Origin: Glycomyces sambucus
Lineage (GTDB): Bacteria > Actinomycetota > Actinomycetes > Mycobacteriales > Micromonosporaceae
NCBI RefSeq assembly: GCF_900102815.1
Contig: NZ_FNGF01000003.1
Coordinates: 434,001-498,000, forward strand
Direction of reading: 5' to 3'
DNA length: 64,000 nucleotides
Below, one piece after another: positions 29,338-39,534 of the stretch. The stretch's first letter is position 1; each line of letters opens with the position of its first letter. Below the pieces are notes generated by a model. The model was not told where the DNA came from and searched no databases. It was given only the letters and a program-made list of their open reading frames with translations. A program made the translations under genes and the position numbers.

Positions 29338-29376
29338 GAAACCCCGCCTTCCAGTGCCTGCACTGGGAGACGGGGA
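29338..29376 (-). terminator. Terminator copy beside the decayed tRNA fragment
   Basis: Hairpin CCCCGTCTCCCAGTG/CACTGGAAGGCGGGG on the minus strand. Its first 19 plus-strand bases (29338-29356) are identical to 39402-39420 at the intact tRNA-Phe gene. Confidence 0.7.
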
Positions 29377-29382
29377 TCAGTC

Positions 29383-29435
29383 TGGTGGCCAGTTCCAGGG
29401 TCGAACCGGCGACCTTCCGCTTCTCGGGCGGACGC
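29383..29435 (-). pseudogene. Decayed 3' fragment of tRNA-Phe (attachment-site copy)
   Basis: 53 bases match, on the same strand and at a constant offset of 10,075, the anticodon arm to CCA end of the intact tRNA-Phe at 39458-39534; 25 bases (29398-29422) are identical. The D-arm and 5' acceptor half are absent, and T-stem and acceptor bases have changed. The flanking gap 29185-29573 has no protein gene. Confidence 0.85.
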
Positions 29436-29573
29436 CCACGCTAGTCGCTCAAAAACTCGCCGAGCTGCGAATTCAATCGGAGCCCGAGATTGCCTCGCCA
29501 TCAACAGCCAAAACTCGACGACCAACCGTGGATCGCGAGCCGACCTGCGGGGATGCCGATGGGACGCGATCGC

Positions 29574-29936
29574 TCAGATGACCAGCAGCGTGCCGGCCAG
29601 TCCGAGCACGAGGAGCAGCACGATCGGGGCCGCGGCGCTGCCCCGGTGGTGTCGGCTGCGGGAGTCACCGGCGCGGGCGTGGACGACCACGGCGCTCAGC
29701 AGCAGCGCCGCCAGGCCGATCCCCGCCGCTAGCCCGAGCGGCACGAACCAGATGCCGACCACGAGGCCGCTCGCACCCGCGAGCTCCAGGACGCCGATGA
29801 GGCGGGTCGCGCGGTCGGCGACGCCGAGTCTGCGCATCGGCTCGGTCACGTTGCGGCGCAAGGCGATCTTCTGGGCGCCTGCCATGAGGAGTACGAGAGC
29901 CGCGAGAGCGGCCAGGATGGCGGCGAACAAGGGCAT
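29574..29936 (-). CDS. DoxX-family membrane protein
   Basis: 120-residue four-helix membrane protein of the DoxX/DoxD group (FAAILAALAALVLLMAGAQKIAL; RLIGVLELAGASGLVVGIWF; LAAGIGLAALLLSAVVVHARAGD). Members are linked to quinone or thiol redox processes; the role here is unknown. ATG 29936 has GGAGG 7 bases upstream. Divergent from a TetR gene with a perfect palindrome between them, so TetR-controlled. Confidence 0.85.
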   Translation of the reverse strand: MPLFAAILAALAALVLLMAGAQKIALRRNVTEPMRRLGVADRATRLIGVLELAGASGLVVGIWFVPLGLAAGIGLAALLLSAVVVHARAGDSRSRHHRGSAAAPIVLLLVLGLAGTLLVI

Positions 29937-29954
29937 GGATCCTCCAGCAAATTT

Positions 29955-29970
29955 GAACGAATGTTCGTTC
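29955..29970. promoter_or_regulatory. TetR operator 1
   Basis: GAACGAA-TG-TTCGTTC, a perfect 7-2-7 palindrome between doxX and tetR. It lies 23 bases before the tetR -35 box. Confidence 0.8.
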
Positions 29971-29992
29971 ACTATGAGGCGACGATGTGGGT

Positions 29993-30021
29993 TTGTCAAG
30001 AAGGAACGTTCGATCTAGGTT
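29993..30021 (+). promoter_or_regulatory. Leaderless tetR promoter
   Basis: -35 TTGTCA (29993-29998), 17 bases, -10 TAGGTT (30016-30021); the ATG follows six bases later. Confidence 0.7.
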
Positions 30022-30027
30022 GGTGCC

Positions 30028-30636
30028 ATGACTCGCGTATCCCAGGAGCATCTCGACGCGCGCCGCCGCCAGATCCTCGACGCCGCACGGCGCTGCTTCG
30101 TCCGCAACGGCTTCCACGCCACGTCCATGCAGGACGTCCTCGTCGAGGCCGGCCTGTCGGCCGGGGCCGTCTACCGCTACTTCAAAGGCAAGGACGCGAT
30201 CATCTCGGCGATCGTCAGCGAGACGCTCACCGACGTCGCAACATCCTTCGCGGCCGAGGAGGACGCGCCGCCCCCGGACCTGGACGACATCGTCGAGATC
30301 GTCTTGCGCGTCGACGCCCCGGTCCTGTCCAAATCAGAGGAATCGGCGCGGCTGCTCGTCCAGGTGTGGTCCGAGGCGCTCCGCTCGCCGGAACTCGGCG
30401 CTCAGCTGAAGGACATCATGGACGAAGCCCGTCAGGTGGTCGCCGGACTCGTGCGCAGGCACCAGGAGCGGGGCGCGCTGCCCCGGGACGTCCCGGCCGA
30501 GCACATGGCCGCGGTCCTGGTCGCCCTGGTCGACGGCTTCATGGTCCAGTGGGCGGTCGACGGCCGCGCCGATCCCGCCGCGTTCCGCAGCGGGCTGCGG
30601 GCACTGATGTCGGCGGGCTCGCGACCCGAAAACTGA
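30028..30636 (+). CDS. TetR-family repressor
   Basis: 202-residue TetR regulator. HTH at about residues 12-55: RRQILDAARRCFVRNGFHATSMQDVLVEAGLSAGAVYRYFKGKDAIISAI. The ligand domain is helical. It lies between two genes it should control: doxX (divergent, one perfect operator) and an FAD monooxygenase (same strand, two imperfect operators in the 82-base gap). The leaderless start is set by TAGGTT. Confidence 0.92.
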   Translation: MTRVSQEHLDARRRQILDAARRCFVRNGFHATSMQDVLVEAGLSAGAVYRYFKGKDAIISAIVSETLTDVATSFAAEEDAPPPDLDDIVEIVLRVDAPVLSKSEESARLLVQVWSEALRSPELGAQLKDIMDEARQVVAGLVRRHQERGALPRDVPAEHMAAVLVALVDGFMVQWAVDGRADPAAFRSGLRALMSAGSRPEN

Positions 30637-37380: not shown

Positions 37381-37500
37381 GTTGGCCTCCTTAGTTGAGG
37401 TTGAGCGGTCATAGATGGAGATGCGGGTTCATTGCCGCGGTCGGGATCAGACCGGGTAGTCGCGGACGGACCGGCGTCCGCGTCGCGTGTGAAGCCGTGG

Positions 37501-38601
37501 TCACCGCCTGGTCCACTGCTGGTTGGCCTGTGCGCCGCCGCAGGCCCAGAGCTGGACCTTCGTGCCGTTGCCGGTGCCCCAGCCCGACGCGTCCAGGCAG
37601 AGGCCCGACTGCACCCCGGTGATGGTGCCGTCGGCGTTGAGGTTCCACTGCTGGTTGGCCTGCCCGTTGCAGTCCCAGATCACCACCGCAGTGCCGTTGC
37701 TGGTGCCCTGACCGGAGGCGTCCAGGCACTTGCCGCCGTATACCGTCAACTGCTTGCCCGCGGTGTAGGTCCACTGCTGGTTGGCGCCGCCCCAGCAGTC
37801 CCACAACTGCACGCCGGTGCCGTTGGCGGTACCGGCCCCGGTGACCTCCAGGCAGCGACCGGACTGGGCGCCCACGATCTCGGTGCCGTCCGCTGCGCCG
37901 ACGCTGCCGGGCACCGACCGCAGTGCGGCGTACCAGACCGCGGCCATCTTGTCGTATCCGGCGGCGGTGGGGTGGACGCCGTCGTCCAGGTCGGCGGCGT
38001 TCAGGGCGCTGTGCATGTCGACCAGGTGGACGTTCTTGCCAGCGTTCACCTTGCTCTGCACGATGCCGGGGATCGCCGCGTTGAAGCTGTTCACGGCCGC
38101 GTCCCCCTCGCTCCACCCGAGCGGAGCGATCTGCGCGACGAACACCTCGGCGTTCGGCGCCGTCGCGGTGATGCGGTCGATCAGTGCGGACAGCCGGTTC
38201 GGGGCGCCGGCGACGTCGTAGTTCTGGAGGATGTCGTTGGTGCCGATGTGCAGCAGCACCGTTTTCGGCTGGTAGGTGTTCAGCCAGCCGACGGCGTTCG
38301 CATGGATCTGGTCGATGCGCCAGCCGGGGTGGCCTTCGTGATCGTGATCGCCGAGGTTTCCCGGCCCGTTGAACTGCGACCCGACGAAGTCCGCGGTGTA
38401 CCCGCCGCTCGCGAGGCGCTGCCACAGGCCGATCCGGTAGCCGCCCGGCGTGGCCGTGCCCTCCGTGATGGAGTCGCCCAGCGGCATGATCCGGACCCCG
38501 CCGTTCGACTCCGCGCTGGCGGTGCCGATGGGTATCGCCACCATGCCCGCCATGAGACCGAGCGCCACGATCCACCCGAGCCACCTTGCTCTTCTTCGCA
38601 T
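37501..38601 (-). CDS. Secreted SGNH/GDSL esterase with C-terminal ricin lectin (CBM13)
   Basis: 366-residue exported esterase. Signal peptide (about 1-30), SGNH hydrolase domain (about 33-235): block [12 protein letters not shown], block [13 protein letters not shown], block [12 protein letters not shown]; then a ricin trefoil (about 240-366) with three NQQW repeats. Carbohydrate esterase family 3-like; deacetylation of xylan is inferred from the GH62 partner. ATG 38601 has AAGGA 8 bases before it; in-frame codons upstream lack a site. An inverted repeat TCGGA-N7-TCCGA (38674-38690) lies upstream and may be regulatory. Confidence 0.9.
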
Positions 38602-38698
38602 CTCTTGTTCCTTGAATTCGTAGGATTGCTTCTGTTTCAGGCGGTCACGGGCGTAGAGGTTATCGCTCACATTTCGGAGTCAAGTTCCGATACATCTG

Positions 38699-39292
38699 AT
38701 GAGTCGGCAGCTCAACTATAGATATGCATCGATGTGTAGTCAACGACTCGACCGAGATTTGTTGATGCACCTAGCGTTACGGGCCGGCACGGGGTCGAGA
38801 TCTGCGGCGAGGCCGGTGAGTAGGCAAAGTGCACAGGTAGCGAAGGAGGCCGCCGAGCGGCAGCGCGCCCGCGAAAAGGCCGAAACGGACGCTCACTCGC
38901 GGGCGATGTCCCAGTTCAAGGCCGAGACCCTCTACCGGCAGGTGGAGGCGTTCGAACGCGCTCGTGCGATCAACACCTACTGTGACGTGCTCGAACAGCA
39001 GATCGAGGCCGCTGATGTCCTTGAGTCGGATCGGGATGGGGCCACTGCCTGGCTCGCGTGGGCCCGGGTCCATGCCGCCCAGATCGATCCGTTCCGAACC
39101 CTGCCGACCATGCCCAACGCCCCCGAGTTCACCTCCGAGCAGCTGGCGCGCTTCATGGATGGAGCCGAAACACTTGAGCCGCAAAGGGATCGGTTTCGTT
39201 CGACACCTCCGCAGTACATGGAACCGGCGCTGACGCTGCTTCACCTTCAGGCGGAAAAATCATCCTTCAGGAGATGGCATCCTCATGTTTGA
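38699..39292 (+). pseudogene. Decayed hypothetical protein gene (C-terminal helical domain)
   Basis: Open frame of 197 codons with no ribosome site and atypical, less G+C-rich sequence at its start. From about residue 60 the protein is a charged helix (AAERQRAREKAETDAHSRAM...) followed by VEAFERARAINTYCDVLEQQI and ATAWLAWARVHAAQIDPF, a pattern I associate with the C-terminus of larger uncharacterised proteins found near integrases and other accessory genes. The N-terminal part of such proteins is missing, so it is probably a remnant. Confidence 0.5.
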
Positions 39293-39333
39293 TATGACTG
39301 ATTTGACTGATTAGTTATATTTGCAAGAAATGT

Positions 39334-39395
39334 CCGGACTGCTATAGGACCGTAAACTGGCCGGAATCAGCCGGATTTCACCGGTCGGAGCCGGA
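39334..39395. repeat. 10-bp phased CCGGA repeats next to the attachment site
   Basis: CCGGA at 39361, 39371 and 39391 and CCGGT at 39381 are spaced exactly 10 bases apart; another CCGGA lies at 39334. They end seven bases before the duplicated tRNA-Phe terminator, where arm-type integrase sites would be expected. Apart from these and the tRNA, 39293-39795 holds no gene. Confidence 0.6.
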
Positions 39396-39401
39396 TATGA
39401 G

Positions 39402-39439
39402 GAAACCCCGCCTTCCAGTGTTCGTGCTGGTAGACGGGG
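39402..39439 (-). terminator. tRNA-Phe terminator
   Basis: Hairpin on the minus strand 18 bases after the CCA end, with arms CCCCGTCT.CCAGCAC and CACTGGAAGGCGGGG. Confidence 0.75.
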
Positions 39440-39457
39440 TGAAATGCCTGGTGGTGA

Positions 39458-39534
39458 TGGTGGCCAGGGCCGGGGTCGAACCGGCGACCTTCCGCTTTTC
39501 AGGCGGACGCTCGTACCAACTGAGCTACCTGGCC
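39458..39534 (-). tRNA. tRNA-Phe (GAA) with encoded CCA
   Basis: Complete cloverleaf on the minus strand: acceptor GGCCAGG/CCTGGCC, D-stem GCTC/GAGC, anticodon stem TCCGC/GCGGA with loop CTGAAAA (anticodon GAA), T-stem GCCGG/CCGGC with TTCGACC loop, discriminator A and encoded CCA. All stems pair perfectly. It marks the right border of a putative island. Confidence 0.98.

Follow-up and report, generated by a model that had tools for sequence, protein, structure and literature searches.

Anatomy of the tRNA-Phe locus

The window analysed here is a 64,000-nucleotide stretch of the genome of Glycomyces sambucus, a soil bacterium (contig NZ_FNGF01000003.1, positions 434,001 to 498,000), and the subject of this report is the interval in it that lies between an intact tRNA-Phe gene and a displaced partial copy of that gene. 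The intact tRNA-Phe(GAA), located at 39458-39534 on the minus strand (Rfam RF00005, 70.8 bits), is the sole tRNA detected in the window and has its terminator hairpin beside it at 39402-39442 (minus strand). The displaced copy, at 29338-29435 (minus strand), begins at the 5' side of the anticodon stem (..GCGGACGC at 29435, equivalent to 39510) and continues through the tRNA 3' end and the terminator, in the same orientation as the intact gene and on the 3' side of that gene. When 39381-39560 was compared with the window by blastn, 29338-29435 was matched with an E value of 5.6e-18 and 81.5 bits, relative to a maximum of 32.8 bits for the best blastn score in 100 first-order Markov resamplings and of 29.2 bits in the rest of the real window. 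The copies are 77% identical over 109 columns, with identical runs of 19 bases (GAAACCCCGCCTTCCAGTG) in the terminator and 25 bases (GGGTCGAACCGGCGACCTTCCGCTT) in the tRNA. The alignment confirms an initial annotation, made from the sequence alone, that had reported a repeated tRNA-Phe 3' part and terminator with runs of 25 and 19 and had placed the complete tRNA, as proved correct, on the side expected for a 3'-end integration. The anticodon stem-loop (39491-39507, minus strand; TCCGC TTTTCAG GCGGA on the plus strand) would be the crossover region; its loop, TTTTCAG, reads TTCTCGG in the displaced copy (29421-29427). An alpha-galactosidase-like gene lies on the 5' side of tRNA-Phe in every relative (20 of 21) but G020, which gave no good match for either.

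The 3' end of tRNA-Phe is abutted by the remnant of a gene for a protein of ~500 aa found beside tRNA, which we call PE. A profile match to its C-terminal third, the rest being lost, extends over 38807-39292 (plus strand), with the 3' end towards the tRNA and the stop codon 166 bp from it. The start depends on the query: 38807 with the profile, 38819 with the G006 PE and 38843 by tblastn (61%, E 4.6e-51). The open reading frame at 38699-39292 has no Pfam match, and its last ~150 residues are the PE C-terminus. Between the PE stop and the terminator lies a right arm (39293-39401), which is matched together with the PE C-terminus in G011, twice in G009, and in G006; a right-arm-type end is also found outside the partial copies of G009 and G013. 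At tRNA-Phe, PE is whole in G011 and G006 and broken in G009, twice. The comparison set comprised the window genome (G000, with the window on contig C9) and 21 relatives from the genus (G001-G021), among them G. albidus (G006), G. artemisiae (G011), G. amatae (G009), G. xiaoerkulensis (G003) and G. buryatensis (G010).

Partial tRNA-Phe copies were observed in five of the 21 relatives: three in G009 (on C34), two in G006, one in G011, two in G013, and a 31-base piece in G003. The copies of the window, G009, G006, G011 and G013 all stop inside the same four bases (query ends 131-134), just past the 5' strand of the anticodon stem, whereas the G003 piece ends elsewhere. Past the tRNA-derived copy, a left arm of ~75 bases (29436-29510) matches the G011 copy at 86% and one G009 copy at 83%; the local scores of 94 and 80 compare with a maximum of 27 in 1000 random comparisons; six other copies and the true 5' side of the tRNA score 12 to 19 (12 for the tRNA 5' flank). 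Because of this common break point and the shared right flank at 29436-29510, the sequence at 29338-29435 is a displaced attachment-site copy and not a second gene that has decayed. The repeat, the break point and the shared arms support the initial proposal of an insertion by recombination at the 3' part of the tRNA. By analogy with the anticodon class of tRNA islands, the anticodon stem would provide the core sites and the loop the overlap.

The three copies that share the left arm have altered loops, TTCTCGG in the window and TTATCGG in G011 and G009, relative to TTTTCAG in the tRNA. Altered anticodon loops occur in several displaced copies, at tRNA-Ser as well, where the change is identical in G014 and G000; such loops are perhaps the element's own overlap sequence. 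Isolated matches of 26-29 bases (96-100%) to the tRNA-Phe anticodon arm, at G000:C5:60715-60742, G009:C55:43667-43695 and G018:C34:246456-246481, are possibly secondary attachment sites. In G009 (C34:274820-274929, locus L070), a tRNA-like 3' end, GAGTTCGAATCCCGCTACCTCCACCA, terminates the left arm; no parent tRNA was found for it, and pieces resembling it occur in G019:C308 and G009:C1.

PE genes and their target tRNAs

A profile search detected PE in 12 of 22 genomes, at 19 loci (G021:C135, where the piece by the tRNA is 36 residues, being taken as one). Fifteen of the 19 lie by tRNA-Phe, tRNA-Ser(GCT) or partial copies of these: five at tRNA-Phe (G000, G006, G009 twice and G011) and ten at tRNA-Ser(GCT) (G000:C7, G001, G002, G003:C31, G014 twice, G015, G018 twice and G021:C135). 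Three others, G003:C23 (by tRNA-Pro), G010:C85 and G010:C21, lie within about 2 kb of a tyrosine integrase of 450-490 aa, and the last is an unplaced 96-base fragment. A further trace, the last 14 residues of PE, stands by a partial copy in G013. The islands at tRNA-Ser(GCT) have the same anatomy, with a copy that runs from the anticodon stem to the tRNA 3' end, and their architecture is like that at tRNA-Phe in G014, G015, G003, G018, G001, G021 and on the window genome's own contig C7. In G009, G014 and G018, a partial copy also has a PE on its outer flank, as accretion predicts. The window element belongs to this Glycomyces family, characterised by a PE gene beside a tRNA and no integrase of its own.

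In a tree of PE sequences, a tRNA-Phe clade (13 rows; target seen for five, P0001 being G006, and assumed for the rest), a tRNA-Ser clade (four rows, target seen for all) and an integrase-linked clade (three rows, integrase seen for two) were each supported at 100/100; the G010:C21 PE was too short to be placed. The window PE falls in the tRNA-Phe clade at 100/100, with a row that fills only 30% of the columns. The PE clades track the target tRNA, with one unsupported exception. PE, an uncharacterised protein of DNA-binding type, is annotated as 'PE-PGRS family protein' for a few of 30 listed relatives and as hypothetical for others. Its structural model, with a predicted local distance difference test score (pLDDT) of 81.8, shows a winged helix at the N terminus, an alpha/beta fold in the middle part and a long coiled coil.

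The second PE-type island of the window genome (G000:C7 110617-116172, loci L103 and L104; 5.4 kb, tRNA-Ser(GCT)) holds a reversed PE remnant, one called gene of 851 aa and the partial tRNA copy. Outside Glycomyces, a tRNA-Met in G208 (L108 2381-10127) has, at a distance of 2 kb, a partial copy of its 3' part, and a PE homologue lies another 4.2 kb past that copy.

Absence of an integrase and origin of the element

No integrase was found by Pfam among the eight called genes of the island. Six-frame screens with PF00589 and PF00239 at a threshold of E 1e-6 gave no match within 183 kb on the window contig, the nearest PF00589 match being ~183 kb off, and tblastn with six integrases (E 1e-3) gave no integrase remnant in the window, which bears out the absence initially noted. 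The same six-frame screens found nothing in ten copies of the element that could be followed over their full length on a single contig (the window, own C7, the newest of G009, G011, G001, G003:C31, G014, G015, G018 and G021), two of which, G011 and G003:C31, have PE whole. At the fetched PE loci of tRNA-Phe and tRNA-Ser, tblastn with the six integrases and E 1e-3 gave one match, of 32 residues (E 2e-4) in the G001 stretch, located 2.3 kb outside the island by tRNA-Ser(TGA).

Integrases do occur at both targets within the genus. Within 2 kb on the 3' side of tRNA-Phe in 21 genomes (the window genome included, G020 left out), PE was observed in four, a tyrosine integrase or part of one in two, and neither in 15. 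The G015 integrase is whole and lies 130 bp from the tRNA; in G010, residues 278-403 are present, at 74% identity. An actinomycete integrative and conjugative element (AICE) between two tRNA-Ser(GCT) sequences in G004 (L168 5867-17213) encodes an integrase (E 2e-22), RepSA (1e-141) and FtsK (3e-13), and also has an excisionase-like open reading frame. In G002 (L169 4543-15740), an integrase stands beside tRNA-Lys, with a partial copy of tRNA-Ser(GCT) about 10 kb away. The pMLP1-type elements of Micromonospora, which carry an integrase, reportedly use the same target, tRNA-Phe.

The interval has two att-like ends, element-type arms, a right-end gene shared with other copies, and no integrase. 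We consider it probable (about 0.8) that ~29.42-39.50 kb is what remains of a tRNA element marked by PE and devoid of an integrase, resembling a cis-mobilizable element (CIME), that integrated in the anticodon loop of tRNA-Phe and was moved by an integrase acting in trans. The anatomy and the element ends shared with other copies show such an insertion. In this scheme, a mobile element would integrate by site-specific recombination in the anticodon loop, presumably through a tyrosine integrase, and would rebuild the tRNA with its own 3' part while the old 3' part and terminator were displaced to 29338-29435, so that the intact tRNA-Phe would now have a 5' part from the chromosome and a 3' part from the element. 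The movement would most likely have been in trans, or in cis by accretion, using an integrase from a coresident AICE-like element that shared the target; candidate sources in the genus are the integrase of G015 at tRNA-Phe and the G004 AICE at tRNA-Ser(GCT).

The closest rival, to which we would give a little under an even chance, is an AICE that lost its own integrase, transfer and replication genes through deletion, so that the island would be an ordinary decayed element or CIME in which PE has no special role. PMC9513070 reports degenerate AICEs of Streptomyces that have direct repeats, cargo and part of an integrase, the account of CIMEs in PMC5704250 defines them by such gene loss, and tRNA-Phe integrases exist in G015 and, in part, in G010; the three PE loci with a nearby integrase point the same way. 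Against this decay stand the ten end-to-end copies devoid of PF00589 or PF00239 matches at E 1e-6 and the tblastn result, with its one short match outside the G001 island. That an integrase was lost is as possible as that it was never carried. A much bolder proposal, that the PE elements at tRNA-Phe and tRNA-Ser are a class of small satellites that never carry an integrase and that PE is their target-specific partner in integration or excision, appears unlikely to us; PE might then act as a directionality factor, recruiting a foreign integrase, or might itself be a recombinase with an unknown fold.

Two further explanations dispense with integration. A local duplication of the tRNA end, with cargo gathered between the copies through ordinary rearrangement in a variable region, would fit the variation of the entire 18.83-39.4 kb between species and the mosaic nature of the cargo, yet the near-identical boundary, the shared arms and the same right-end gene recur in separate genomes and at two different tRNAs, and we hold it to be improbable. 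The divergence between the two copies is high enough to suit a second tRNA-Phe gene that decayed in place, which would leave no island at all; this we can scarcely credit, given that the copy lacks its 5' half, cut off at almost the same base as in four other genomes, that the adjoining element end is common to G011 and G009 and scores far above the tRNA 5' flank, and that there is no second full tRNA-Phe among the tRNA-Phe matches of the genus genomes.

Several observations weigh against a PE-marked element moved in trans. By profile search, 10 of 22 genomes have no PE match, and three PE loci have the tyrosine integrase within 2 kb; in G013, the 174 kb between the PE trace with its partial copy and the intact tRNA include three integrase matches. 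The exception in the tree is a 138-aa tRNA-Ser PE fragment of G018, placed apart from the Ser clade in a position without support. Contrary to the usual orientation, the PE remnant of own C7 faces away from the tRNA-Ser beside it, and part of the G001 PE is inverted. Among the three shared-arm copies, the outer flanks do not match, and they give no evidence of a single ancestral insertion. No excised circle was seen. The initial annotation had expected strains lacking the island to join the tRNA-Phe terminator directly to the sequence left of 29338; an empty site was seen in none of the 11 relatives that could be compared. Finally, the alpha-galactosidase gene, over-long as called, has codon use that scores just as atypical as that of the cargo.

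Elements of this kind are already known, and what is new is PE as their hallmark. As described in the Islander survey (PMC4383910), where 2083 of 3919 candidates use the anticodon subsite, islands of this class pair an intact tDNA with a displaced 3' fragment, on the correct side and in the correct orientation, 2-200 kb apart; the window island has this arrangement over about 10.1 kb, with an anticodon-centred site. Going by that description, a tyrosine integrase is required inside the island, and a filter of this type would reject the window island, which has none. The CIMEs of PMC5704250, as characterised there, retain both att sites and lack integration and transfer genes; the window island has both attL and attR, with one loop altered, has no integration or transfer genes, and is related to islands with tandem accretion in G009 and G014. 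The PE elements differ from that account in having a conserved non-integrase gene beside the tRNA, many copies and two tRNA targets, and their mobilisation is putative. For Streptomyces, PMC9513070 describes how AICEs accrete and decay at a single tRNA, and the tRNA target, accretion, variable cargo and decay outlined there are shared by the PE elements. In contrast, the AICE genes (integrase/excisionase, RepSA-type and FtsK-type) are absent from all eight called genes of the island and from the PE remnant, whereas the G004 tRNA-Ser element has them. Surveys that require an integrase reject such islands, so a recurring class of tRNA-borne cargo in actinobacteria, including hemicellulases, defence-like genes and two-component systems, may be under-counted; the PE gene provides a search handle for them. 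The split of the PE clades by target tRNA raises the testable question of whether PE has a role in choosing or using the tRNA site.

Extent, flanks and cargo of the island

The recombined unit spans the ~10.1 kb between the two anticodon loops, at about 29.42-39.50 kb. An island of ten kilobases, initially drawn at 29338-39534, stands in this sense, whereas the region that differs between relatives is wider, 18.83-39.4 kb. The core gene order of the window ends at 18,822-18,833 in G006, G008, G011, G012 and G019, and earlier in others; the last core gene on the left (17651-18829, plus strand) is one that we take to be sulfotransferase-like. Between the core and the tRNA, the 11 of 21 relatives that have both on one fetched stretch contain 3.5 to 21 kb of differing genes. 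The left flank (18916-29184) encodes APH, a mycothiol transferase, MarR, an FMN reductase-GNAT protein, a serine hydrolase, a penicillinase repressor, an M48 peptidase, NlpC/P60, a protein without Pfam match, an ECF sigma factor and RibD_C; it was found at no fetched tRNA-Phe locus of the relatives, counting matches of 150 bp or more, and its RibD-type gene has one weak match in the 21 relatives. Since the core order ends earlier and the left flank is absent from the relatives' tRNA-Phe loci, 18.8-29.3 kb is also accessory, and the sequence left of 29338 is not the old chromosome that it had been taken for. Nor does the divergence between the copies date the insertion as old and fixed, because one copy would come from the chromosome and the other from the element. 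Read by eye, the usual neighbour in G002, G005, G006, G007, G012, G016 and G018 is a protein-kinase-like gene, which is not among the window genes called there.

The comparison of composition that the initial annotation had suggested showed a G+C content of 68.6% in 29437-39402, relative to 72.1% on the left and 71.1% on the right, and atypical codon use for the eight cargo genes compared with 37 core genes (third-position G+C, GC3, of 0.908 against 0.969 and 0.958, p 4e-4; codon score, p 2e-4). The atypical codon use resides in six genes: a DoxX-like membrane protein (29574-29936, minus strand; PF13564), a TetR regulator (30028-30636, plus strand; PF00440), an FAD monooxygenase (30719-32359, plus strand; PF01494, E 5e-77), a two-component pair (32528-34326, minus strand; PF07730, PF00072, PF00196) made up of a histidine kinase (33175-34326, minus strand) and a LuxR-type regulator (32528-33175, minus strand), and a serine hydrolase of the beta-lactamase family (34478-35746, plus strand; PF00144, E 6e-60). 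The kinase-regulator-hydrolase stretch is 79% identical in G006:C88.

The remaining two genes form a GH62/SGNH pair (35834-38782, minus strand; PF03664, PF13472, PF00652), in which a GH62 arabinofuranosidase with a ricin domain (35902-37380, minus strand) is accompanied by a GDSL/SGNH hydrolase with a ricin domain (37501-38670, minus strand). The codon use of the pair is core-like, and at least 13 of 21 relatives have all or part of it on a contig different from that of tRNA-Phe, with a best match per genome of 89-92% identity (for example, 91% over 2.95 kb in G009:C38). The pair is native to the genus and was apparently a later arrival here; the initial suggestion that the insertion brought these arabinoxylan enzymes is not supported. 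Because the homology of the pair ends at 38,782 and that of PE starts at 38,807-38,843 depending on the query, a gap of 24-60 bp, the pair probably truncated PE, and the later loss of PE sequence next to it would leave this copy probably immobile.

Cargo differs among the related islands. Between the tRNA-Phe copies of G009, the cargo comprises a helicase, an ATPase and a TPR protein that weakly matches trypsin and NTPase, each of them PADLOC-similar, and by eye the tRNA-Ser island of G001 has an ATPase resembling that of G009. The PE element of G014 carries ABC proteins, the tRNA-Ser cargo of G015 includes a GH43-ricin protein and a weakly GH127-like, ricin-bearing protein, and carbohydrate-active genes, again read by eye, adjoin the G002 PE. 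In G. artemisiae, an SGNH gene is located 0.8 kb from tRNA-Ser(GCT) (G011:C2:544142-546379). Elsewhere in the window, a cyclic di-AMP (c-di-AMP) riboswitch was detected at 58400-58553 on the plus strand (RF00379, 71 bits).

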